The position numbers were made by a program, and so were the translations under genes. Shown one piece after another: positions 9,821 through 19,152 of a DNA stretch of 64,000 nt. The stretch is taken from NCBI RefSeq assembly GCF_013364155.1, contig NZ_CP054916.1, positions 2,107,001 through 2,171,000 of the forward strand, written 5' to 3'. Source of the stretch: Streptomyces sp. NA02950. Its GTDB lineage: Bacteria > Actinomycetota > Actinomycetes > Streptomycetales > Streptomycetaceae. Below the pieces are notes generated by a model. The model had not been told where the DNA came from and searched no databases. It worked only from the letters and a program-made list of their open reading frames with translations. Within the stretch, counting starts at the first letter, position 1, and each line of letters begins with the position of its first letter.

Positions 9821-10954
9821 CTACGAAGAACTCCGCACGGGCCACCTCGGCCCGGTGGCCGCGTCACCGCACCAGGCGTACTGGCGCTCCGGCTCGACGG
9901 TCAGGCCGTAGTCGTAGAGCGACGGGCCGCCCAGGGCGAGCCAGGCGGACCACGCCTGTTCCACTTCGTCGGCCAAGCGGCGGGGGCCGCCTTGGTGGGC
10001 GATGGTTCCGTGGTCGCTCGTGGCGGTGAGGGCCGTCCAGGACGATGTGCCGTCGTGCAGCCAGGCGTTGACGCCGTCCTGGTCGATCGCCGTGGTGATC
10101 CGGACGTCCGGGAGGGCGACGCGCAGCGCGAAGATCAGGTGCCAGTTGTCACGCAGTGGGGCAAGGTCCCGCGCGACGGGCCGTTCGTCGGCCGGTGGGT
10201 CGTCGCCGCGCACCTCGGCGTAACTCCGGCCGGGACCGGCGGTGCCACGGGCGGGCATGAAGGTGGCAAGGCCCTGCACCCGTCCGGTGGCCGAGCGCCC
10301 GTCGTCGGCGACCGTGAGGGCGACATGGCCCAAGTGACCCCAGGGGGTGACGATCCGGCCGCCGGAACGGGTCTGCTCCACCCAGGCCCACGGCACCTCG
10401 TCCACGGCGTACGTGGAGATGACCCGGTCGTACGGCACCCCGGACGGGCAGCCCTCGGTCCCGTCACCTACGTGGACGGTGACCTCCGTCGCAGCCTCCT
10501 TCAGCCGATCGGCGGCCCGCTCCGCCAGCCCGGCGTCGACCTCGACGCTCACCACCCGCCCCGCGGCGCCGACCCGTTGGGCCAGCAGTGCGGCGTTCCA
10601 CCCGGTGCCGGTGCCGAGCTCCAGCACACGGTGGCCCGGTTCGAGGAGCAGGGAGTCGAGCATGTCCACCACGACGCCCTGAGCCGACAGACTGGACGTC
10701 GGCACGCCATCGGTGATCTGGGTGGCCGCCGCCAGGTCCGGGGACTCGTACAGTTCGGCGGCCCACCGCTCAGGATCGGCGGAGCGGTCGAGGGGCACAT
10801 ACGCGTGGCCGTCCCAACGCCACAGCCGGTCCGGCGCGAAGGTGTCCCGGGGCACGGCGGCGACGGCGCGACGGATCCAGGTGGACCGGGCGGGCCAGGC
10901 GCCGCGCCGATCCATGACCGCCGCCAGTGCGGCGCGCTGATCGTCGAACGTCAT
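9821..10954 (-). CDS. PIMT-like SAM-dependent methyltransferase, copy 1
   Basis: 377-residue class I methyltransferase resembling protein-L-isoaspartate methyltransferases, specifically the longer actinobacterial relatives found in peptide-maturation systems. The N-terminal AAVPRDTFAPDRL and the PTSSLSAQGVVVDML segment precede SAM motif I, LELGTGTGWNAALL (about 111-124). VSVEVD is the acidic motif, YDRVISTYAVDEVPWAWVEQ is motif II, and GGRIVTPWG is motif III. A long C-terminal extension shares its layout with the second copy at 14452-15630. It starts 3 nt after the stop of a 37-residue ORF, so translation is probably coupled. No ATP-grasp or lanthionine synthetase is near. The substrate is inferred to be that small peptide. 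Confidence 0.8.
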   Translation of the reverse strand: MTFDDQRAALAAVMDRRGAWPARSTWIRRAVAAVPRDTFAPDRLWRWDGHAYVPLDRSADPERWAAELYESPDLAAATQITDGVPTSSLSAQGVVVDMLDSLLLEPGHRVLELGTGTGWNAALLAQRVGAAGRVVSVEVDAGLAERAADRLKEAATEVTVHVGDGTEGCPSGVPYDRVISTYAVDEVPWAWVEQTRSGGRIVTPWGHLGHVALTVADDGRSATGRVQGLATFMPARGTAGPGRSYAEVRGDDPPADERPVARDLAPLRDNWHLIFALRVALPDVRITTAIDQDGVNAWLHDGTSSWTALTATSDHGTIAHQGGPRRLADEVEQAWSAWLALGGPSLYDYGLTVEPERQYAWCGDAATGPRWPVRSSS

Positions 10955-10957
10955 GGG

Positions 10958-11071
10958 CTACTTCTTGTGCTTGCCGTTGCCGGACTCGGGAGGCGGAACC
11001 TGACCGTCGCTGTTGCCCGGCGGCGGCTTGCCCTGGCCCGGGTCGGGCGGTGGCTTTTCGTGCTTGCCCAT
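10958..11071 (-). CDS. very small Pro/Gly-rich ORF upstream of methyltransferase copy 1 (candidate precursor peptide)
   Basis: 37-residue ORF beginning MGKHEKPPPDPGQGKPPPG and ending in a Lys/His-rich tail (GNGKHKK). It contains one Asp-Gly (NSDGQ) and one Asp-Pro. The start is ATG 11071 with a purine-rich GAAGGGGGAGG immediately before it; the frame extends upstream to 11140 but lacks a better site. The stop lies 3 nt before the methyltransferase ATG. I do not recognise a family. Its position and composition parallel the 51-residue ORF before the second methyltransferase, which is why I consider it a modified peptide or peptide substrate. Not certain to be expressed. Confidence 0.5.
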   Translation of the reverse strand: MGKHEKPPPDPGQGKPPPGNSDGQVPPPESGNGKHKK

Positions 11072-11173
11072 GCCTCCCCCTTCGCCGCGATGGATCGGGC
11101 CCATCGTGACGTGCGGGTCGGCGCGCCGGGTAGGGCGCACGGGTGTGCGCCGGGTTGCCCGGTGGTGCCGCAG

Positions 11174-11587
11174 CTACGAGGACGGCAGGGCCGAAAGCAG
11201 GGGAGAGCGGTCGAAGAAGACCTCGTTCCGCGTGATCAGCCCGCCCCTCAGCGAAACAGTGCACACCCCGTCACACTCGACGCCACCGTTCGGCGTGGGG
11301 ATGTCCGCGTGCCAGTAGTTGAGGAAGCCATCCCGCAGGGGCCTGACGTCCGTGTTCGTCCATACCCAGTCCGGAAACCTGCCCAGCAGGCGCCGGAAGT
11401 AGGCCACGATCTCGTCTCGCCCCCGCACACCGCCGGGAACGGCAGGATCACAGTAGACGGCGTCATCCGCGTAGAACGCGGCAAGTCCCTCGGGATCGTT
11501 CCCCGTCCAGGCCGGCAGCCACCGGGACGTGAAGGCGCGAGCCTCGACCTCGCCGAGCCCTTCAAAAGTCGCCACGATCGGCCTCAT
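11174..11587 (-). CDS. SnoaL-like/NTF2-fold protein
   Basis: 137-residue protein with the NTF2-like cone fold pattern: a helical N-terminus (FTSRWLPAWTGNDPEGLAAFYADDAVYCDP), VRGRDEIVAYFRRLLGRFPDWVW, and a C-terminal beta-sheet (ECDGVCTVSLRGGLITRNEVFFD). Such proteins may be small cyclases or isomerases, or non-enzymatic binders. No specific substrate can be given. ATG 11587 is the only good start; the upstream GTGAGAA is a weak ribosome site. It lies upstream of the small peptide/methyltransferase pair, separated by about 100 nt. Confidence 0.75.
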   Translation of the reverse strand: MRPIVATFEGLGEVEARAFTSRWLPAWTGNDPEGLAAFYADDAVYCDPAVPGGVRGRDEIVAYFRRLLGRFPDWVWTNTDVRPLRDGFLNYWHADIPTPNGGVECDGVCTVSLRGGLITRNEVFFDRSPLLSALPSS

Positions 11588-11682
11588 TTCTCACAAGGGT
11601 GCAGGACCGGCCCCAAGTTACCGGCCGGTTGACACAGATGGAACATGCATCAGAACGGTGATCCCCACGGGACGCCCCCGAC

Positions 11683-12093
11683 TCAGGAATCCAGCACGGC
11701 CGCCACGGCCTCGATCTCCACGAGCTGATCGGTGTAACCCAGCACGGTGACCCCCATCAGTGTGCTGGGCACATCGTGGTCACCGAGTGCGTCCCGATAG
11801 ACGTCCCACGCCGCCACCAGGTCCTCCCGGCGGGAGGAGGCGACCAGGACACGGGTGCTGACGATGTCCTCCAGCGACGCACCCGCGTCCGCCAAGGCGG
11901 TCTTCATGTTCTCCACGGCCTTGGCCGCCTGCCCCGCGACATCCCCGATCGCAGCCGTGGAGCCGTCCTCGTTCAGCGGGCAGGCACCGGCCAGGAAGAT
12001 CAGCCGCGCTTCGGCCGGGGCCGTGGCCGCGTAGGCGTACTCGGCGACATCGGACAGGGACGCGGAGCGGATCAGCGTGACGGCGCGGGGCAT
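11683..12093 (-). CDS. RidA/YjgF-family protein
   Basis: 136-residue RidA-family (reactive intermediate deaminase) protein. Family features: IFLAGACPLNEDGSTAAIGDVAGQAAKAVENMKTALADAGA, then DIVSTRVLVASSRREDLVAAWDVYRDALGDHDVPSTLMGVTVLGYTDQLVEIEAVA. In canonical RidA an Arg in a C-terminal R-x-x-V-E-I-E-type strand binds the substrate carboxylate. Here the strand reads DQLVEIEA, lacking that Arg, so enamine deaminase activity is doubtful and it may belong to a divergent subgroup. ATG 12093 has AGAGGAA 7 nt upstream. Confidence 0.85.
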   Translation of the reverse strand: MPRAVTLIRSASLSDVAEYAYAATAPAEARLIFLAGACPLNEDGSTAAIGDVAGQAAKAVENMKTALADAGASLEDIVSTRVLVASSRREDLVAAWDVYRDALGDHDVPSTLMGVTVLGYTDQLVEIEAVAAVLDS

Positions 12094-12199
12094 GGGCGGT
12101 TCCTCTCGCGGTGGATACGGGTCGCGTACAGGTTGAGCACGACCCTCTCAAGGACCGGCTCCGTGTTCGACGCAATTTCCCGGCCGTCGGTCCCGACAC

Positions 12200-12283
12200 G
12201 GCGCCAGCCAACCGAATCACCAGCCGCACGAGGAGCGGCGGCGGGTCCTCACCGCCCCGAACGCTCTCAACCGACCGTTCTAG
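12200..12283 (+). pseudogene. C-terminal relic of a VOC gene, near-identical to part of 7533-7904
   Basis: Reading from 12200 gives GASQPNHQPHEERRRVLTAP and then a TAG at 12281. This parallels LGAGKPDHQPHEERWRVLTDP in the VOC gene at 7.5 kb. At DNA level 12211-12258 matches 7820-7867 at 45 of 48 positions. No N-terminal part or start is present, so this is a gene fragment, either from a tandem paralogue or a partial duplication. Its stop overlaps the stop of the convergent gene at 12280. Confidence 0.7.
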
Positions 12284-12738
12284 CCGCCTATGACGTCCTT
12301 GAACGTCTCGATCGTCCGCCGCCGCATGGTCAGGAATGCGAGCCACGAGCCGTCCGCGCAATGCAGGCGGAAGCGGGCCATCAGCTGGAGACGCGGGCGG
12401 CGTTCCACGCGGGCGGTCCAGGAGCGGGGTATTTCCCAGACGGGGGTGCCATCCAGGGGGCGCACGAGCCCAACGCGCTGGTCAGTGACGCGCAGCAGCA
12501 GCCCGCCCGACGTCTCCGGCATACCCGACGCGATGGTGCCGGCCCCCGCGGACACGGCGCCGACGGATTGCACAAGGTGGTCGCCGAGCGCTCCACCGGC
12601 CTTTCCGTGCCCGTGGTAATTCATCTTCACGCCCTTGGCGCTCTTGGCCGGCACCACGATGCCGAAAGCGAGGAGTTGCTCTCCCGGCGCCAACTGGCTG
12701 AGCGCAGACCGCTGATGCGTGGACATCTGTTCGGGCAT
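12280..12738 (-). CDS. hypothetical protein, possible PH-like fold
   Basis: 152-residue soluble protein I cannot assign to a named family. The middle is Gly-rich (YHGHGKAGGALGDHLVQSVGAVSAGAGTIASG). The C-terminal half looks like a small beta-barrel: GLLLRVTDQRVGLVRPLDGTPVWEIPRSWTARVERRPRLQLMARFRLHCADGSWLAFLTMRRRTIETF. That pattern resembles bacterial PH-like domains. ATG 12738 follows AGGA at 9 nt. It is transcribed with, and downstream of, the frameshifted anti-sigma gene. Confidence 0.6.
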   Translation of the reverse strand: MPEQMSTHQRSALSQLAPGEQLLAFGIVVPAKSAKGVKMNYHGHGKAGGALGDHLVQSVGAVSAGAGTIASGMPETSGGLLLRVTDQRVGLVRPLDGTPVWEIPRSWTARVERRPRLQLMARFRLHCADGSWLAFLTMRRRTIETFKDVIGG

Positions 12739-12821
12739 GAGGGCGATCCTATGGCATCAGTGATCCGCCCCGAGGACGGCCCCGGCTCAGCCCTGGCGCA
12801 TCCGCCGGGAATCGCAGGCAT

Positions 12822-13234
12822 CTATAGGCGCACCCGGGCCCACACGGTCTTGCCGACGACGCGCTCCCTGACGCCCCATGCCTCGGCGAACGTGTCCACG
12901 ATCGCCAGCCCGCGTCCGGACTCGTCGTCGGGGGCGGCCTCTCCGATCATGGGGCACCCGTCACGCGGATCGGACACCTCTAGCCCGACCAATTTTCTGC
13001 GTCATATGCGATACACACTTCGAAGTACCGCCCTGGTACACGGCCGTGCCGTACCGCATTGGTCGCCAGCTCGGAGAGGACGAGCTGCACGTCAGCCACC
13101 TGACCTGCGTCAACGCCCCACGCGAGAAGTGCGGTACCGGCCGCGTGCCGCGCGTGGTGGACAGATGGCGGGACGGGAGTAAACCTCTGGTTCCAGCCAA
13201 GGCGGGGGTTTACGTTGTGACTTTCCGCGTTCAT
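12822..13234 (-). pseudogene. ATP-binding anti-sigma regulatory protein, frameshifted
   Basis: RsbW/SpoIIAB-type GHKL ATPase broken in two frames. The first part runs from ATG 13234 to a stop near 12970 and includes the N-box VQLVLSELATNAVRHG. The second part continues in another frame to TAG 12822: VGLEVSDPRDGCPMIGEA, ESGRGLAIVDTFAEAWGVRE (G-box) and VGKTVWARVRL. Restoring one A in the GAAAA run near 12990 would give DAEKLVGLEVSDP and join them, so this is a single-base deletion or a homopolymer sequencing error. It is divergent from the XRE-DUF397 genes, the usual WhiJ/AbaA-like arrangement of Streptomyces. Confidence 0.8.
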
Positions 13235-13354
13235 GGGCCCACTGTCGGTGCAGGCGGCTAGCTTCACCAGTGACAGAGCGTCGACGGCGGCGACCGGCAA
13301 CTGCGGTCGAACGCCCGTTGATTGATGTTGAGCCGCGTTGAGGGGTGGGCTGAG

Positions 13355-14176
13355 ATGTCACAGTCGAAGAAGAAGGACTCCGCGCCGCCGACCGTGCAGT
13401 ACTTCGCCGCTGTACTGCGGCTTCTGCGCGAACGGGCGGGCCTGACACAGGACGAGCTGGGCGCGCTGATGAGCTACACGGGTTCGGCGGTGAGCGCGGT
13501 GGAGACGTGTGCGAAGCCGCCGACGGACGAGTTCATCGATGCGGCCGAGAAGGCACTGGACGCGGGCGGGTTACTGAGGTCGGCGATCAAGTACCTGCGG
13601 CTTGAGCGCTACCCGGCCCATTTCCAGGGCTTTGTGCAGTTGGAGCAGGCGGCACTCAGTCTCTCCTCGTACTGCACCCAACTGATTCATGGCCTTCTGC
13701 AAACGCAGGAGTACGCCCGCGCAGTACTCGACAGCGCCTTCCCTCCCCTCGAGGGAGAGGAGATTGAGCAGCTTGTTGACGCGCGGGTGGAACGCAAGTC
13801 GTTGTTCGACCGTAAGCCCATGGCCGTGCTGAACGTGGTCATGGAGGAGGGGGCGTTGCGTCGACGGATGGGCGGACGCGAGGTGATGCGCGATCAGTAC
13901 GCGCACCTGATCGAGTGCGCATCACGCCCCAACGTCGTCGTGCAGGTTATGCCGAACAGCCGTGCTGGGCATGCTGGGCTTCAGGGGCCGATGACGTTGA
14001 TCGAGACAGCCGATGACACATCCGTGGCCTACTTGGAAGGTCACGGGAAGAGCATCCTGATGTCCAAGCCGGACGAGGTAGGCGTGCTTTCCCGTCGCTA
14101 TGCCATGATCAGGTCGCAGGCCCTCGGGCCGGAGGAATCCGTAGGCTTCATCGAGGAGTTGATGGGTGAGCTATGA
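13355..14176 (+). CDS. XRE-family regulator with DUF5753 domain
   Basis: 273-residue protein. Residues about 10-70 form a helix-turn-helix of the Cro/XRE class (FAAVLRLLRERAGLTQDELGALMSYTGSAVSAVETC). The remainder is the DUF5753 domain (YCTQLIHGLLQTQEYARAVL, RQSLFDRKP-like region, ASRPNVVVQVMPNSRAGHAGLQGPMTL). These proteins pair with DUF397 partners and act in WhiJ/BldB-type developmental or antibiotic control. ATG 13355 is chosen over 13322 because the conserved region begins there and GAGGGG precedes it. The gene overlaps the DUF397 gene by 4 nt (ATGA). Confidence 0.9.
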   Translation: MSQSKKKDSAPPTVQYFAAVLRLLRERAGLTQDELGALMSYTGSAVSAVETCAKPPTDEFIDAAEKALDAGGLLRSAIKYLRLERYPAHFQGFVQLEQAALSLSSYCTQLIHGLLQTQEYARAVLDSAFPPLEGEEIEQLVDARVERKSLFDRKPMAVLNVVMEEGALRRRMGGREVMRDQYAHLIECASRPNVVVQVMPNSRAGHAGLQGPMTLIETADDTSVAYLEGHGKSILMSKPDEVGVLSRRYAMIRSQALGPEESVGFIEELMGEL

Positions 14177-14412
14177 GCAACCTCGCCTGGTTCAAGAGCA
14201 GCTATAGCGACTCCAGCGGCGGCGAGTGCATCGAGGTCGCCTACGACTGGCGCAAGTCGAGCTACAGCGACTCCGGCGGCGGCCAGTGCGTCGAGGTCGC
14301 CACCGTGACCCCCGCCGCCGTCCACGTCCGGGACTCCAAGAACCCCGACGGCCCCAACCTCTGCATAAGCGCCGCCGCCTGGTCCGCGTTCCTCGGCTAC
14401 GCCACCCGCTGA
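14173..14412 (+). CDS. DUF397 protein with duplicated N-terminal motif
   Basis: 79-residue DUF397 protein, the usual small partner of XRE-DUF5753 regulators. The core WRKSSYSDSGGGQCVEVA, followed by VHVRDSKNPDGPNL and the closing SAAAWSAFLGY, is typical. It is unusual in that the first motif is present twice in tandem: WFKSSYSDSSGGECIEVA (about 6-23) and then WRKSSYSDSGGGQCVEVA (about 26-43), clearly a recent internal duplication at DNA level. It overlaps the regulator gene by ATGA and so is translationally coupled. Confidence 0.9.
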   Translation: MSNLAWFKSSYSDSSGGECIEVAYDWRKSSYSDSGGGQCVEVATVTPAAVHVRDSKNPDGPNLCISAAAWSAFLGYATR

Positions 14413-14451
14413 TCCGGGGCGCCCCCACCGGGGCGCCCACAGGGTCACACC

Positions 14452-15630
14452 TCAGAGGGCCCAGGAGTGGGCCGGATCGTCCAGCCAGGCCCGTTGCCCA
14501 CCGGCGGTGACGGTCAGGCCGAAGCGGGTGTGCTCCGGCCTCTCATGGCCGACCCACCACCGGTAGGCGCCGGCCACCTCGTCCCACAACCGGCGGGGCC
14601 CTGACTGCCAGACACGGGCCTCGGCCTCCCCGTCGCGGAACATCACGCACGCCCATGAGCGGTCACCGAGCCCGTAGAACCACACCGGGCGGGCCCCGTC
14701 GCGCTTGTCGGCCACGGCCTGGGCACAGTCCCGTACGCGGAGCCCCAGCGCGAAGGGGAGGGCGGTGTACCTGCCGGTGACGAACTCCGCTTCCGTGATC
14801 TCCGTGGTGGACGTGTGGGCCCCCGCCATGCCTTCCGCCGGGATGTACTCACCATGCCCCGGCAGCGACAGCCGCTGAGCGCGCAGCTTCATGAACTCCA
14901 CGGGCCGGGTGAAGTGTCCGGACGCCTCCCCGGTACCGACGACGAGCCGGGCGACGGCATCCGCGTTGCTGTAATGGGTGCCCCACGGGGCGATGATCAG
15001 GCCGCCGGGCCGGGTCTGCTCGATCCATGCCCCGGGGATCTCCCGGACCGCGACGGTGGCCAGGACGCGATCGTAGGGGGCGGCGGGCACGTGCCCTCCG
15101 GCACCGTCGCCCCGGACCACCGTGGGGAACAGTCCGGCCGCGCGGAGGCGTTCGTCGGCCCGGAGCGATACGGCAGGGTCCACCTCGACCGTGGTCACGT
15201 TCCCGCGCCCGAGCCGGTGGGTCAGGGCCCCGGCCGTCTCGCCGGTACCGGTGCCGACGTCGAGCACGTTCATGCCGTCGTCCACCGCTGTCGTGTGAAG
15301 CAGTGTGTAGACGACCGAGGGCATGGACGAGGAGCTGGTGGATACTCTTCCCGGCCGGGGACCGGAGTGTTCGCCGTCATCCCACTGGGTCACGATGGGG
15401 ATGTTGCTGTCCGCCGCCGCGTACCACGCGTCCGGGCCATCCGCCCGATCGACGGCAACACCCCTGCCCGCGTCCATGTCGAAGGGCCACATCAGGTCCG
15501 GCAGGAAGGCAGCCCGGTCCACGGCCGCGAAGGTCGGAGCCCAGTCCGGAGTCAGCACACCCCTCTCAAGGAGGACGCGCCCCAGCTCCTTGCGGCTGGG
15601 GCGCCCCGTCTGGGCGACGTCGAAACTCAC
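14452..15630 (-). CDS. PIMT-like SAM-dependent methyltransferase, copy 2
   Basis: 392-residue relative of the methyltransferase at 9821-10954. Shared features: FAAVDRAAFLPDLMWPFD near the N-terminus, the Ser-rich STSSSSMPSVVYTLL segment (about 97-111), SAM motif I VLDVGTGTGETAGAL (about 122-136), TTVEVD, YDRVLATVAVREIPGAWIEQTRPGG and IAPWGTHY. The C-terminal extension ends TRFGLTVTAGGQRAWLDDP, parallel to YDYGLTVEPERQYAWCGD in copy 1. It starts at GTG 15630, overlapping by 4 nt the stop of a 51-residue Asp-Gly-rich ORF. Sequence similarity suggests the family acting on Asp in ribosomal peptides; the actual substrate is inferred. Confidence 0.8.
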   Translation of the reverse strand: MSFDVAQTGRPSRKELGRVLLERGVLTPDWAPTFAAVDRAAFLPDLMWPFDMDAGRGVAVDRADGPDAWYAAADSNIPIVTQWDDGEHSGPRPGRVSTSSSSMPSVVYTLLHTTAVDDGMNVLDVGTGTGETAGALTHRLGRGNVTTVEVDPAVSLRADERLRAAGLFPTVVRGDGAGGHVPAAPYDRVLATVAVREIPGAWIEQTRPGGLIIAPWGTHYSNADAVARLVVGTGEASGHFTRPVEFMKLRAQRLSLPGHGEYIPAEGMAGAHTSTTEITEAEFVTGRYTALPFALGLRVRDCAQAVADKRDGARPVWFYGLGDRSWACVMFRDGEAEARVWQSGPRRLWDEVAGAYRWWVGHERPEHTRFGLTVTAGGQRAWLDDPAHSWAL

Positions 15631-15782
15631 TTGCGATGCGTCCCGTCGCCGGGCGGAGTGTCGCCGTCAGGGGACGGCGGCTCCTGCGGGGGCGTCCAGG
15701 GCTGGCCGGGATGCCCGTCCCCGCCCCCTCCGTCTCCGCCGTGCCCTTCGTCCACAGCGGTGATGATCTCGGCGTTGCGCAT
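15627..15782 (-). CDS. very small Asp-Gly/Pro-rich ORF upstream of methyltransferase copy 2 (candidate precursor peptide)
   Basis: 51-residue ORF: a short leader-like MRNAEIITAVDE, a Gly/Asp run, then a proline-rich tail (GQPWTPPQEPPSPDGD) ending THRK. It contains four Asp-Gly dipeptides, the sequence most prone to succinimide/isoaspartate formation and thus a natural target for a PIMT homologue. ATG 15782 has an excellent GAGGAGG 7 nt upstream. Its stop overlaps the methyltransferase GTG. I know no named family for it; the candidate RiPP role is inference from coupling, size and composition. Confidence 0.6.
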   Translation of the reverse strand: MRNAEIITAVDEGHGGDGGGGDGHPGQPWTPPQEPPSPDGDTPPGDGTHRK

Positions 15783-15900: not shown

Positions 15901-17202
15901 CTACACCCGCCCGTGGGCCTTCTGTGCCCTGCGCGACAGCGAGTCGAGGACCACCGCGATCAGCAGCACACCGCCGGTGATCATGAACTGCACGGCGGCC
16001 TGGATGCCCATGAGGGCCACGCCCGAGGCGATGGACTGGATGACCAGCACACCGAGCAGGGCGGACCAGGTGCTGCCGCGGCCGCCGAAGAGGCTGGTGC
16101 CGCCGATGACGGCGGCGGCGATGGCGTTCATCAGCAGGTTGTTGGAGACGGAGGTCTGGCTGACCGAGCTGATGCGCGAGGCCAGGAAGAGGCCGCCGAT
16201 CGCGGCCATGGTCCCCGACATCATGAAGGCGGAGATCCGCACCAGATCCACGTTGAGACCGGCCCGGCGGGCCGCTTCGACCCCGCCCCCCAGGGCGAAG
16301 ATCATGCGCCCGTAGGCCGTACGCCGCAGCACATAGTCGAGGCCGACCAGCACGAAGAGGAAGATCAGCAAGGCCAGCGGCAGGCCCTGGAACTGGTTGA
16401 GCAGAGCGGCGGCGACGAAGCCGACGACGGCGAGGACGCCCGTACGCAGCCCGATCTCGGTCAGGGACCGGAACGGCACCTCGGCCCGGCGGCGGCTGCG
16501 GGCGTCCAGCCAGGAGCCGAGGAAGTACCCGGCCGCGCCGAGCGCGGCCAGCCCGTAGGCGGCGGCGATGTCGTTGAAGTAGAAGTTGGTCAGCTTGGCG
16601 ACCAGGCCCCGGTCGTCGATGTTGATCGTGCCGTAGGTGCCCATGATGTAGAGCATCAGGCCGTACCAGCCCAGCAGTCCGGCGAGGGTGACCACGAACG
16701 CGTGCACACCGACCTTGGCGAAGAAGAAGCCCTGTATCGCTCCGACCGCGGTTCCGCAGAGCACGGCCAGGACGACGGCGGGAAGTTCGGGCATGCCCTG
16801 GTTGACGTTGAGCACGGCGAAGGTGGCGGCGGCCAGGCCGCTGACCGAGGCCACCGACAGATCGATCTCGCCGACCAGCAGGACGAAGATGACACCGACC
16901 GCGATCATGCCGGTGCCGACGATGTCCACGCTGAGGTTGGAGAGGTTGCGCGGGGAGAGGAAGTGCGGGTTGATGGTCTGGAAGATGATCCAGATGAGGA
17001 AGAGGCCGAGCACAACGGGGACGGACCCGAGTTCACCGCTGTGGTAACGGTGCTTGAGCTCGTGGACGCCGCGCCCGACGAGGTGCGCGGGGGCGCCCGC
17101 CTTCCGCACCGCGGCGGCGGTTCCGGCGCGCTCGCCCGGCGCCGGGCGTTCCGCCTGCCGCGCCGACCCGGGCTCTCCTGGTGAGGTGCGTGTTCTGTTC
17201 AC
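15901..17202 (-). CDS. xylH: sugar ABC transporter permease (xylose/ribose type)
   Basis: 433-residue inner-membrane permease of the BPD_transp_2 family (XylH/RbsC/FrcC). An N-terminal soluble segment is followed by about 10 helices: VPVVLGLFLIWIIFQTINPHFLSPRNLSNL, then the conserved VGVIFVLLVGEIDLSVASVSGLAAA, GLDYVLRRTAYGRMIFALGGGVEAARRAGL (cytoplasmic coupling loop) and IGGTSLFGGRGS. The GTG 17202 start overlaps the ATPase stop (GTGA). It forms an operon with the ATPase and the binding lipoprotein. The specific name is tentative because it rests on the XylF-like binding protein. Confidence 0.85.
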   Translation of the reverse strand: MNRTRTSPGEPGSARQAERPAPGERAGTAAAVRKAGAPAHLVGRGVHELKHRYHSGELGSVPVVLGLFLIWIIFQTINPHFLSPRNLSNLSVDIVGTGMIAVGVIFVLLVGEIDLSVASVSGLAAATFAVLNVNQGMPELPAVVLAVLCGTAVGAIQGFFFAKVGVHAFVVTLAGLLGWYGLMLYIMGTYGTINIDDRGLVAKLTNFYFNDIAAAYGLAALGAAGYFLGSWLDARSRRRAEVPFRSLTEIGLRTGVLAVVGFVAAALLNQFQGLPLALLIFLFVLVGLDYVLRRTAYGRMIFALGGGVEAARRAGLNVDLVRISAFMMSGTMAAIGGLFLASRISSVSQTSVSNNLLMNAIAAAVIGGTSLFGGRGSTWSALLGVLVIQSIASGVALMGIQAAVQFMITGGVLLIAVVLDSLSRRAQKAHGRV

Positions 17203-17981
17203 AACTCCCCTTCCCGCACCGTGCGGCGTGTCACGGCGTTGTCGGAGGCGCCGGTGATGGAGGAGACGATCTGCTCCTGCGATGTGGTGGTCACGTCGAA
17301 GAACCCGTTGTTGCGGCCGAGGCGGAGCACCGCGACCCAGTCCGCGACGGCCTTGACGTCGCCCAGGTTGTGGCTGATGAGCAGGACGCCGAGGCCGCGG
17401 TCGCGCAGCCGCTCGACGAGGTCGAGGACCTGGGCGGTCTGCTCGATGCCGAGGGCCGCGGTGGGCTCGTCGAGGAGGACCAGCCGGGGTTCGCCGAGCA
17501 TCGAGCGGGAGATCGCGACGGTCTGGCGCTGGCCGCCGGAGAGTGAGGCGACCGGGCGGCGTACCGCGGGGATGCTGATGGAGAGGGTGTTCAGCAGTTC
17601 CAGGGTGCGGCGTTCCATCTCCACCTCGTTGAGCACGCCGAAGCGGCGGACCTCGCGGCCGAGGAAGAGGTTGCCGACGACGTCGAGGTTGTCGCAGAGC
17701 GCGAGGTCCTGGTAGACGGTGGCGATGCCGAGGTGCTGGGCGTCGTGGGGGCGGTTGATCTGGACCGGGTGGCCATCCCATTCGAGGACGCCCTCGTCGG
17801 CCGGGTCCACGCCCGCGATCACCTTGATCAGAGTGGACTTTCCGGCGCCGTTGTCGCCCACGAGGGCGATGACCTGGCCCGCGTAGATCTCCAGATCGAC
17901 GTCGGCGAGCGCCTGGACCGCGCCGTACCGCTTGAAGACGCCGCGCAGCGCCAGCAGGGGCGGGGGTGACGTGCAGGTCAT
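17199..17981 (-). CDS. xylG: sugar ABC transporter ATP-binding protein
   Basis: 260-residue single-cassette ATPase (half the size of the usual double-cassette XylG/RbsA, as in FrcA-type systems). Motifs: Walker A GDNGAGKST, a YQDLALCDNLDVVGNLFLGRE Q-loop region, signature SLSGGQRQ, Walker B PRLVLLDEPTAALG and H-loop LLISHNL. It energises sugar import with the downstream permease. ATG 17981 follows GGAGGAG. The binding-protein gene lies 49 nt upstream. Confidence 0.9.
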   Translation of the reverse strand: MTCTSPPPLLALRGVFKRYGAVQALADVDLEIYAGQVIALVGDNGAGKSTLIKVIAGVDPADEGVLEWDGHPVQINRPHDAQHLGIATVYQDLALCDNLDVVGNLFLGREVRRFGVLNEVEMERRTLELLNTLSISIPAVRRPVASLSGGQRQTVAISRSMLGEPRLVLLDEPTAALGIEQTAQVLDLVERLRDRGLGVLLISHNLGDVKAVADWVAVLRLGRNNGFFDVTTTSQEQIVSSITGASDNAVTRRTVREGEL

Positions 17982-18030
17982 CTGCTCCTCCCTTCGCCAC
18001 CCGGGGTGTCCGGCCCACCAGGTGTGTCCG

Positions 18031-19152
18031 TCAGGTGATGAGTCCGGCCTTCCGGCAGGCGTCCGCGTACTTCTCCGTGCAGATCTGGTCGTTCGTGTAC
18101 ATCCCGTCCCGGATCAGGATCTTGATGTTGTGGACGTTCACCGTGATGGGGTGCAGCAGGACGGCCGGGATGGACCGGCTGGTGCCGCTGTTGACCCGAT
18201 CCCCCGCGATCCCGGCGAGCGACTTGCCGCGTCCGAGCGCGACGGCCATCTCGGCGGCGGCGTAGGCCTCGGGTTCGAACGGCTTGTAGACGGTCATGAG
18301 CTGTTCGCCCGCGACGATGCGCTGGACGGCGCCGAGTTCGGCGTCCTGACCGGTGACCGGGGGCAGCGGCCGGATCTTGGCGGCCTTGAGGGCGGAGATG
18401 ACGCCCGAGGCGAGGCCGTCGTTGGCCGCCAGGACGCCTTGGATGTTGTCCGCGCCCAGGGCCGCGATGGCGCCGGACATGTTGAGGTTGGCGTTCTCCG
18501 GCCGCCAGCCGATGGTCTCGTAGGACTTGCCGATCTTGACCTTGCCGCGGAGGACGTCCAGGGAGCCGCGTTCGAACCAGTCCGAGTTGGGGTCGGTCGA
18601 GGAGCCGTTCATCATGACGATCTGGTCGAGGTCACCGGGGGTGTGCGGGCCCAGCGCCGCCAGCAGCGCCTCGCCCTGGAGACGGCCGACCTCGGCGCCG
18701 TTGAAGGAGACGTAGCCGGAGACGGGGCCCTCGGCGAGCCGGTCGTAGGCGACGACCGGGATGTTGGCCTGGCGGGCCTTGACGACCGAGGAGCGGATGG
18801 CCCGGCCGTCGACCGCGTCCAGGATCAGCACCTCGACCCCGTTGGCGATCATGGAGTCCACCTGGTGCTGCTGGGTGGCGGCGTCGTGCTGGGCGCTGGC
18901 GTAGTCCACGGTGCAGCGCGGGCACAGCTCCTTGATCCTCTTTATGATCAGGGGCTTGTCGAACCGGTCGAAGCGGGCGATCTCGTTGTCCGGGAGCAGC
19001 AGGCCGATGCGCAGGTTCCGGTGGTGGGCCGCATCGCCGGACTGCTCCACCTGGGCGGCCTTGCCGCATGCGGCGAGGGTGACGGCCAGGGCCGTCGCCG
19101 CCGTGGCGGCGACGGCGATACGGAGCCGGGCCCGGGCCGGGGAGGTGTTCAT
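18031..19152 (-). CDS. xylF: D-xylose-type sugar-binding lipoprotein
   Basis: 373-residue periplasmic-binding protein-like lipoprotein. The signal peptide ends in the lipobox VTLAAC (Cys at about 29), placing it on the outer face of the membrane. The body resembles XylF: LLPDNEIARFDRFDKPLI, MIANGVEVLILDAVDGRAI, VVAYDRLAEG, GSSTDPNSDWFERGSLDVL, VLAANDGLASGVISALKA, TGQDAELGAVQRIVAGEQLMTVYKP. The xylose assignment is a reasonable inference, not proven. Its ATG overlaps the TGA of the SpoIIE phosphatase gene upstream, tying sugar uptake to a signalling protein. Confidence 0.85.
   Translation of the reverse strand: MNTSPARARLRIAVAATAATALAVTLAACGKAAQVEQSGDAAHHRNLRIGLLLPDNEIARFDRFDKPLIIKRIKELCPRCTVDYASAQHDAATQQHQVDSMIANGVEVLILDAVDGRAIRSSVVKARQANIPVVAYDRLAEGPVSGYVSFNGAEVGRLQGEALLAALGPHTPGDLDQIVMMNGSSTDPNSDWFERGSLDVLRGKVKIGKSYETIGWRPENANLNMSGAIAALGADNIQGVLAANDGLASGVISALKAAKIRPLPPVTGQDAELGAVQRIVAGEQLMTVYKPFEPEAYAAAEMAVALGRGKSLAGIAGDRVNSGTSRSIPAVLLHPITVNVHNIKILIRDGMYTNDQICTEKYADACRKAGLIT

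Follow-up and report, generated by a model that had tools for sequence, protein, structure and literature searches.

Locus organization

Within a stretch of 64,000 nucleotides from Streptomyces sp. NA02950 (contig NZ_CP054916.1, positions 2,107,001 to 2,171,000; the whole stretch is hereafter called the window), two very short genes, pep1 and pep2, each directly precede a gene for a methyltransferase of the protein isoaspartate methyltransferase (PIMT) type, MT1 and MT2, respectively. Coupling within each pair is tight: a gap of 3 nt separates the pep1 stop codon from the ATG of MT1, and the TGA of pep2 overlaps the GTG start codon of MT2. The space between the two pairs is taken up by genes for a SnoaL-like protein, a Rid-like protein, an unassigned 152-residue open reading frame (ORF), a HATPase_c_2 protein, an XRE-DUF5753 regulator and a DUF397 protein. 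A previous reading made from the sequence alone had described this arrangement as a duplicated cassette and, with the exception of the word ‘duplicated’ (see below), its description was confirmed, including the coordinates and lengths, the coupling of small ORFs to methyltransferases and the XRE-DUF397 module in between. All features are collected in table 1.

The methyltransferases

Both MT1 and MT2 match the Pfam family PCMT (PF01135), and the matched part extends to residue 216 of 377 in MT1 and to residue 220 of 392 in MT2, which leaves a C-terminal extension of more than 100 residues in either protein. TIGR04188, the ‘ATP-grasp peptide maturase system methyltransferase’ family, aligns over nearly the whole length of both enzymes, with scores of 255.6 (MT1) and 263.6 bits (MT2) that stay below its cut-off of 380. 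That both are PIMT-type enzymes with a long C-terminal extension, as had been noticed from the sequence, is thus borne out. With family profiles of MT1 and MT2, the best match among solved structures is the PIMT of Thermotoga maritima (1DL5), which covers the catalytic part only. MT1 carries a GTGTG motif for S-adenosylmethionine (SAM) and, at residue 338, the sequence WLALGGP, i.e. a WXXXGXP motif that is invariant in seven aligned sequences (MT1 and six relatives).

The two enzymes are not close copies of each other. MT1 and MT2 share about 37% identity, and each of them has a relative at 82–83% identity in Streptomyces coffeae; a recent duplication of the cassette was therefore rejected, and ‘duplicated’ overstates the relationship. 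Rather, pep1-MT1 and pep2-MT2 each belong to a conserved family of their own. Among 150 genomes of the genus (E ≤ 1e-90), 10 contained a match to MT1 and 28 a match to MT2, with the genome of NA02950 counted in both, and four genomes (G000, G028, G031 and G089 in our numbering) had both enzymes. Tandem pairing is also not the rule, as two such methyltransferases occurred together in only 6 of the 115 loci that were fetched.

Conservation of the precursor peptides

Scanning named genomes with the alignment of MT1 and its six relatives yielded 77 loci, of which 63 have a pep1-family peptide immediately ahead of the methyltransferase. Likewise, a small peptide precedes the methyltransferase at 33 of 36 MT2 relatives (the window's own excluded), so that the coupling to a small upstream ORF, on which the sequence-only reading had staked its proposal, is kept well beyond the window.

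In pep1, which consists of 27% Pro and 19% Gly and has a single Asp-Gly (D22), Asp22 is found in 63 of 63 family members. The motif used for the search itself contains this Asp; with a pattern independent of Asp, 57 loci matched and all 57 have the N-x-D motif. The residue that follows is Gly in 58 of the 63 peptides, Ser in three, Val in one and His in one, and the last residue, which in pep1 closes the tail GKHKK, is Lys or Arg in every member. Selection acts on these sequences at the protein level. In 2016 pairwise comparisons among 64 pep1 sequences (window included), synonymous differences (mean pS 0.55) outweigh non-synonymous ones (mean pN 0.26; pN/pS 0.47), with pN being lower than pS in 99% of pairs, whereas the two shifted frames reverse this relation (pS 0.29 and pN 0.36, pS 0.24 and pN 0.37). 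Since pN is lower than pS in the true frame only, pep1 is clearly under purifying selection, which is also the outcome of the synonymous/non-synonymous comparison that the sequence-only reading had called for.

When up to two mismatches are allowed, a promoter-like box (CGTCACGATGG) occurs ahead of pep1 in 27 of the 62 regions examined as compared with 8 of 124 control stretches, counts in which some of the sequences had also served to derive the motif. In a subset of relatives, the box is accompanied by a second, less strictly conserved block that lies some 20 bases farther upstream.

For pep2 (24% Gly, 18% Pro, 12% Asp), a search with the whole peptide gave 41 proteins including pep2 itself, and all those named by their sources are called hypothetical or uncharacterized. 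As had been noted previously, this larger peptide contains four Asp-Gly (D17, D22, D39 and D46). D39 is invariant in all 41 proteins, and D22 and D46 are nearly so; near-invariant are also R50 and K51 at the end of the tail GTHRK. The 33 peptides linked to MT2 relatives comprise 23 of the Pro-Asp type represented by pep2 and a third type, rich in Gly and Asp, with 10 members. Since Pro-Asp defines the former type, finding it in all 23 adds nothing independent, in contrast to the search with the whole peptide. The third family (QDDSDSGNKHGGGGSDEGGN-like and low in Pro) precedes MT2 relatives of 44–49% identity at loci L051, L053–L058, L226, L232 and L233. On one contig of genome G120, two identical pep2-MT2 relatives (L032 and L059) are oppositely oriented and separated by about 17 kb.

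An important question is which residue would be modified. From its conservation, Asp22 is predicted to be the single modified residue of pep1, and Asp39 that of pep2. An alternative would be that these are real precursors of which a different Asp, or several, is modified, for which pep2 offers some room with its four Asp-Gly and the near-invariance of D22 and D46. However, D39 alone is invariant, while D46 is replaced by Asn in L032 and its copy L059 and the region around it is missing from several MT2-associated peptides, and in pep1 the other candidate position, D10, is occupied by a residue other than Asp in 21 of 63 members. A mistake in the single-site prediction thus seems unlikely, although it is the most serious of the alternatives considered here.

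Such residue-by-residue conservation also bears on a more trivial explanation, in which MT1 and MT2 would be housekeeping-type enzymes for isoaspartate repair and the small ORFs would be leader peptides that do no more than couple translation. The PCMT domain in both enzymes is in line with this, and so is the spacing of the ORFs, which is compatible with translational coupling. A coupling leader, however, does not need conservation to this degree, and the C-terminal extension of MT1 and MT2 is that of enzymes acting on ribosomally synthesized and post-translationally modified peptides. Moreover, the relatives of MT1 in the same genome keep the company of peptide-modifying enzymes (see below), and we regard the housekeeping explanation as highly improbable.

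Partner enzymes and MT1 paralogues in the same genome

The genome of NA02950 (9.77 Mb) contains 17 MT1 matches including MT1 itself and MT2. Three of the paralogues (L003, L004 and L006) adjoin graspetide synthetases, of which the genome has four above the cut-off of TIGR04187, and four others have LanC-like genes adjoining or within about 5 kb, two of these being inverted copies near the contig ends. At the locus studied here, in contrast, there is no graspetide synthetase, the nearest TIGR04187 match in the genome starting at 2207989, i.e. about 85 kb away, and no LanC-like match (PF05147) was found within 2 Mb, with lanthipeptide dehydratases not having been searched for. The statement that no partner enzyme exists within 20 kb therefore holds for the two families searched, graspetide synthetases and LanC-like proteins.

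It is conceivable that the cassettes derive from a graspetide or lanthipeptide cluster in which they served as tailoring modules, and that its primary enzyme has been lost or is located elsewhere in the genome. TIGR04188 is after all a graspetide-associated methyltransferase family, and with four TIGR04187 synthetases the genome would not be short of such enzymes. On the other hand, the pairing of peptide and methyltransferase has been kept across the 63 loci of the MT1 scan, and the TIGR04188 scores of MT1 and MT2 are well under the cut-off, whereas two of the three graspetide-linked paralogues score above it (483.5 and 434.6 bits) and only the third below (339.2 bits). We thus give little credence to this possibility.

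Two further loci in this genome may be mentioned. At L002 (C1:4794199-4798251), a 42-residue Gly/Asp/Lys-rich ORF precedes an MT1 paralogue and forms a third pamtide-like pair, and at L006 (C1:2206808-2211136) the graspetide synthetase and the methyltransferase are close to another DUF5753-DUF397 pair.

Two probable gene pairs of the type I pamtide class

A class of peptides with this minimal genetic outfit was described in 2023, the initial publication on imiditides being JACS 2023, 145, 18834. According to PMC10787088 and PMC13001092, clusters for imiditides, or type I pamtides, consist of a precursor and a PIMT homologue only; the precursors have about 45 residues, are rich in Gly, Pro and Asp and mostly end in conserved basic residues; and the enzymes, which have an additional C-terminal domain with a WXXXGXP motif, methylate an Asp that turns into an aspartimide and subsequently into isoaspartate or Asp. 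Going by these class descriptions, the systems of Streptomyces sparsogenes (SpaA-SpaM) and Nonomuraea maritima (NmaA-NmaM) share with the pairs found here the two-gene organization with no further modifying enzyme, a short linear Gly/Pro-rich precursor with a conserved Asp next to Pro or Gly and a basic tail, and a PIMT homologue with a C-terminal domain, in which WXXXGXP is intact in MT1 and altered in MT2. In contrast to the SpaA and NmaA systems, two different families here flank an XRE-DUF397-HATPase core, and pep2 is net acidic. Type II pamtides, or cysimiditides, are also made from a precursor and a PIMT homologue only and differ in having two CXXCXGXG motifs; pep1 and pep2 have no Cys and hence no such zinc-ribbon motif. 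Group 13 graspetides (graspimiditides) use a methyltransferase of the homologous family TIGR04188 and differ by the ATP-grasp synthetase in their cluster, which this locus does not have.

Overall, we consider it very likely that the locus comprises two gene pairs, independent of each other, for the biosynthesis of type I pamtides (imiditides). The minimal peptide-modification system proposed in the sequence-only reading thus fits the evidence, although as a system it is not new and belongs to an already published class. By analogy with this class, each short gene would provide a linear Gly/Pro/Asp-rich precursor and be expressed jointly with the gene for a dedicated PIMT-like aspartyl O-methyltransferase, an enzyme that presumably recognizes the peptide via its C-terminal domain and the basic tail of the peptide. 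The target would be a single conserved Asp, i.e. Asp22 in pep1 and Asp39 in pep2, which would receive a methyl group on its side chain; spontaneous attack by the backbone nitrogen would then generate the aspartimide (−18 Da), which in turn would hydrolyse to isoaspartate or Asp.

Several observations weigh against this assignment. In MT2, the equivalent of WXXXGXP reads WVGHERP, with Glu in place of a Gly that is near-invariant among 12 aligned MT2 sequences, in which the motif is the rule. Calculated charges (+1.7 for pep1 and −14.7 for MT1, −6.2 for pep2 and −8.3 for MT2) indicate clear charge complementarity for the first pair only, because pep2 is net acidic and just its tail is basic. Asp amounts to no more than 5% of pep1. 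Furthermore, a pep1-family peptide is absent from 14 of the 77 MT1-query loci, three of which (L126, L128 and L131) have a different Gly/Asp/Lys-rich ORF, two (L134 and L135) an upstream ORF resembling the end of an ATP-grasp gene and nine no clear candidate, and three of the 36 MT2 relatives (L034, L049 and L052) have no recognizable upstream peptide.

XRE-DUF397 regulators beside pamtide pairs

Between the two pairs, the WhiJ-like XRE regulator and its DUF397 partner stand next to the divergently oriented HATPase protein, a putative counterpart of AbaA. In the DUF397 protein, the sequence KSSYSDS...CxEVA is present twice, and short additional matches of this kind are also seen in several more of the genome's DUF397 genes. 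No RNA families or tRNAs were found in the window.

Table 1. Features of the locus with their positions in the window (position 1 is its first nucleotide).
Feature	Position	Strand	Basis or remark
MT1 (PIMT/PAMT-type SAM methyltransferase with C-terminal extension, 377 aa)	9821..10954	-	PF01135; TIGR04188
pep1 (peptide 1 precursor, 37 aa)	10958..11071	-	family MGxHxKPxPDPxxGxPPPGN(S/A)DGQVPxPPPxxGKHKK
Asp22 codon of pep1 (predicted modified residue, N-x-D-G)	11006..11008	-	conservation; modification inferred
promoter-like box CGTCACGATGG (also written CGTCACNATGG), ~30-40 nt upstream of pep1	11101..11111	-	motif in subset of relatives
HATPase_c_2 protein, divergent from XRE gene	12980..13300	-	PF13581; beside XRE also in L061, L062, L200, L201
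three GTTGA direct repeats, 10-bp spacing, predicted WhiJ-type operator at the regulator's own promoter	13317..13346	+	15/15 score
WhiJ-like XRE regulator, HTH_31 + DUF5753; likely start ATG 13355	13322..14176	+	PF13560, PF19054
DUF397 (BldB-like) protein, N-terminal half repeated	14173..14412	+	PF04149, two stretches
pep2-MT2 stretch missing as unit from L062	14427..15900	-	blastn
MT2 (PIMT/PAMT-type methyltransferase with C-terminal extension, 392 aa)	14452..15630	-	PF01135; TIGR04188
pep2 (peptide 2 precursor, 51 aa)	15627..15782	-	conserved C-terminal half PGxPWxPPxxPPSPDGxxPPGDGTHRK
Asp39 codon of pep2 (predicted modified residue, P-D-G)	15666..15668	-	conservation; modification inferred

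XRE-DUF5753/DUF397 pairs were counted with profiles built from MT1 loci, which may have introduced a slight bias toward these. Such a pair is present at 20 of the 77 MT1-query loci (1454 kb) and at 11 of the 36 MT2 loci (605 kb; one identical duplicate, L198 and L236, included and three MT1 loci fetched with this set excluded). The control consisted of 60 stretches of 20 kb sampled at random from 12 genomes (1200 kb), two of which contain such a pair; Fisher's test against this control gives p = 0.0003 for the MT1 and likewise for the MT2 loci. At MT1 loci that have a pep1-family peptide, the count is 16 of 63 (p = 0.0006). The control happens to be low, as the density of DUF5753 in the genome of NA02950 (40 in 9.62 Mb) predicts about 5 in 60 random stretches, and the fall of XRE density with distance serves better as a control. 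For MT1, the 439 kb lying 0–3 kb from the enzyme contain 15 XREs and the 651 kb lying at 5–10 kb contain 6 (p = 0.004); the corresponding numbers for MT2 are 13 in 207 kb and none in 232 kb (p = 0.00006). The baseline per 100 kb amounts to 0.33 for the random stretches and to 0.42 for the NA02950 genome. Since the loci are related to each other, all these p-values are too small to be read literally. XRE-DUF5753/DUF397 regulators are thus enriched near both pamtide families, at distances of up to about 3 kb.

Do these regulators descend from a single pamtide-linked ancestor? In a tree of 66 XREs, of which 33 are linked (from 32 of the 37 loci having one, plus that of the window) and 33 are background, linkage requires 16 changes, with a mean of 22.3 after shuffling and 2 of 500 shuffles being as low. 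A single origin was thus rejected; the linked XREs are partly clustered, yet of many origins, and the association therefore seems to have arisen repeatedly. No earlier report of a link between pamtides and XRE-DUF397/DUF5753 was found among the open-licence papers searched, and within this set it is apparently new, although the same link has already been reported for graspetides: groups 11 and 13 are described as co-occurring with DUF397/DUF5753 pairs (PMC13097080), and HATPase and HTH-DUF5753 genes as being found at actinobacterial ATP-grasp loci (PMC8939145).

The triple GTTGA repeat located between the HATPase and XRE genes, which is conserved in L061, L062 and L201 and has one change in L200, reaches the full score of 15/15, with the next best non-overlapping site in the 64 kb scoring 10/15. 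It resembles the WhiJ9 site (PMC10294661; reverse complement starting with GTTGAG). The iosA-whiJ9-bldB9 locus of Streptomyces venezuelae (PMC10294661), one of the WhiJ-BldB-AbaA loci, also has a WhiJ-like XRE paired with a DUF397 protein, and a site of three direct repeats precedes its regulator gene. It differs in that its neighbour is iosA, while here the neighbours are pamtide pairs with no copy of the operator in front of the peptides. Indeed, no triple repeat was found before pep1 or pep2, where the best scores are 10 and 8 of 15 and random 180-base stretches of the window also reach 10; as there is no common 10-mer either, an operator shared by the regulator and both peptides was rejected. 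At 18 other loci, hand-chosen stretches between regulator and pamtide score 13/15 in L118 and only 8–11/15 in the other 17. With the sole triple WhiJ-type operator of the window being at the regulator's own promoter, direct control of the peptides is not supported. Thus, of the regulation by the WhiJ-like module that had been suggested from the sequence, the linkage is real and statistically strong, but the operator does not occur before either peptide.

Cassette turnover around the regulator core

In Streptomyces coffeae (L061), the order ABC transporter, pep2-MT2, DUF397, XRE, HATPase, Rid and pep1-MT1 is kept, with about 2 kb extra between MT2 and DUF397 relative to the window and no match to the SnoaL-like and 152-residue proteins at the threshold used. 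Streptomyces sp. NEAU-Y11 (L062), by contrast, is without pep2-MT2: blastn aligns window positions 15901-18198 with L062 2255-4559 and 12238-14426 with L062 4585-6748, so that the distance between the two flanks is 1,474 bases in the window and 25 bases in L062. pep2-MT2 is thus present or absent as one unit. L201 and L200 have the same HATPase-XRE-DUF397 core flanked by an MT2-type enzyme on the side that MT1 occupies in the window, in L201 with a Pro-Asp peptide (L060) and in L200 without a recognizable one (L034). Cassettes therefore come, go or switch sides around a conserved HATPase-XRE-DUF397 core, which, as far as the papers searched go, appears not to have been described before.

Biological implications

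XRE-DUF397 pairs have been proposed to be toxin–antitoxin systems (PMC7159879), and PMC10364602 reports such behaviour for none of 14 pairs tested and an influence of XRE-DUF397 regulators on development and antibiotic production in Streptomyces. Both peptide families might be conserved signals rather than weapons, with the peptide in its aspartimide or isoaspartate form being sensed, directly or via DUF397, by the neighbouring WhiJ-like XRE-DUF5753 protein. We hold this to be improbable, and yet it would account for both the recurrence of the linkage and a core sequence that hardly varies and, if true, would tie peptide modification to the control of development or antibiotics.

Linking aspartimide peptides to a biological function is referred to as the bigger challenge in a 2026 review (PMC13001092). 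With XRE-DUF397 regulators being concentrated beside two different pamtide families, and with cassette turnover around a conserved regulator core as a part of the same picture, the locus provides a testable regulatory lead, and it offers two defined substrates with one predicted site each.

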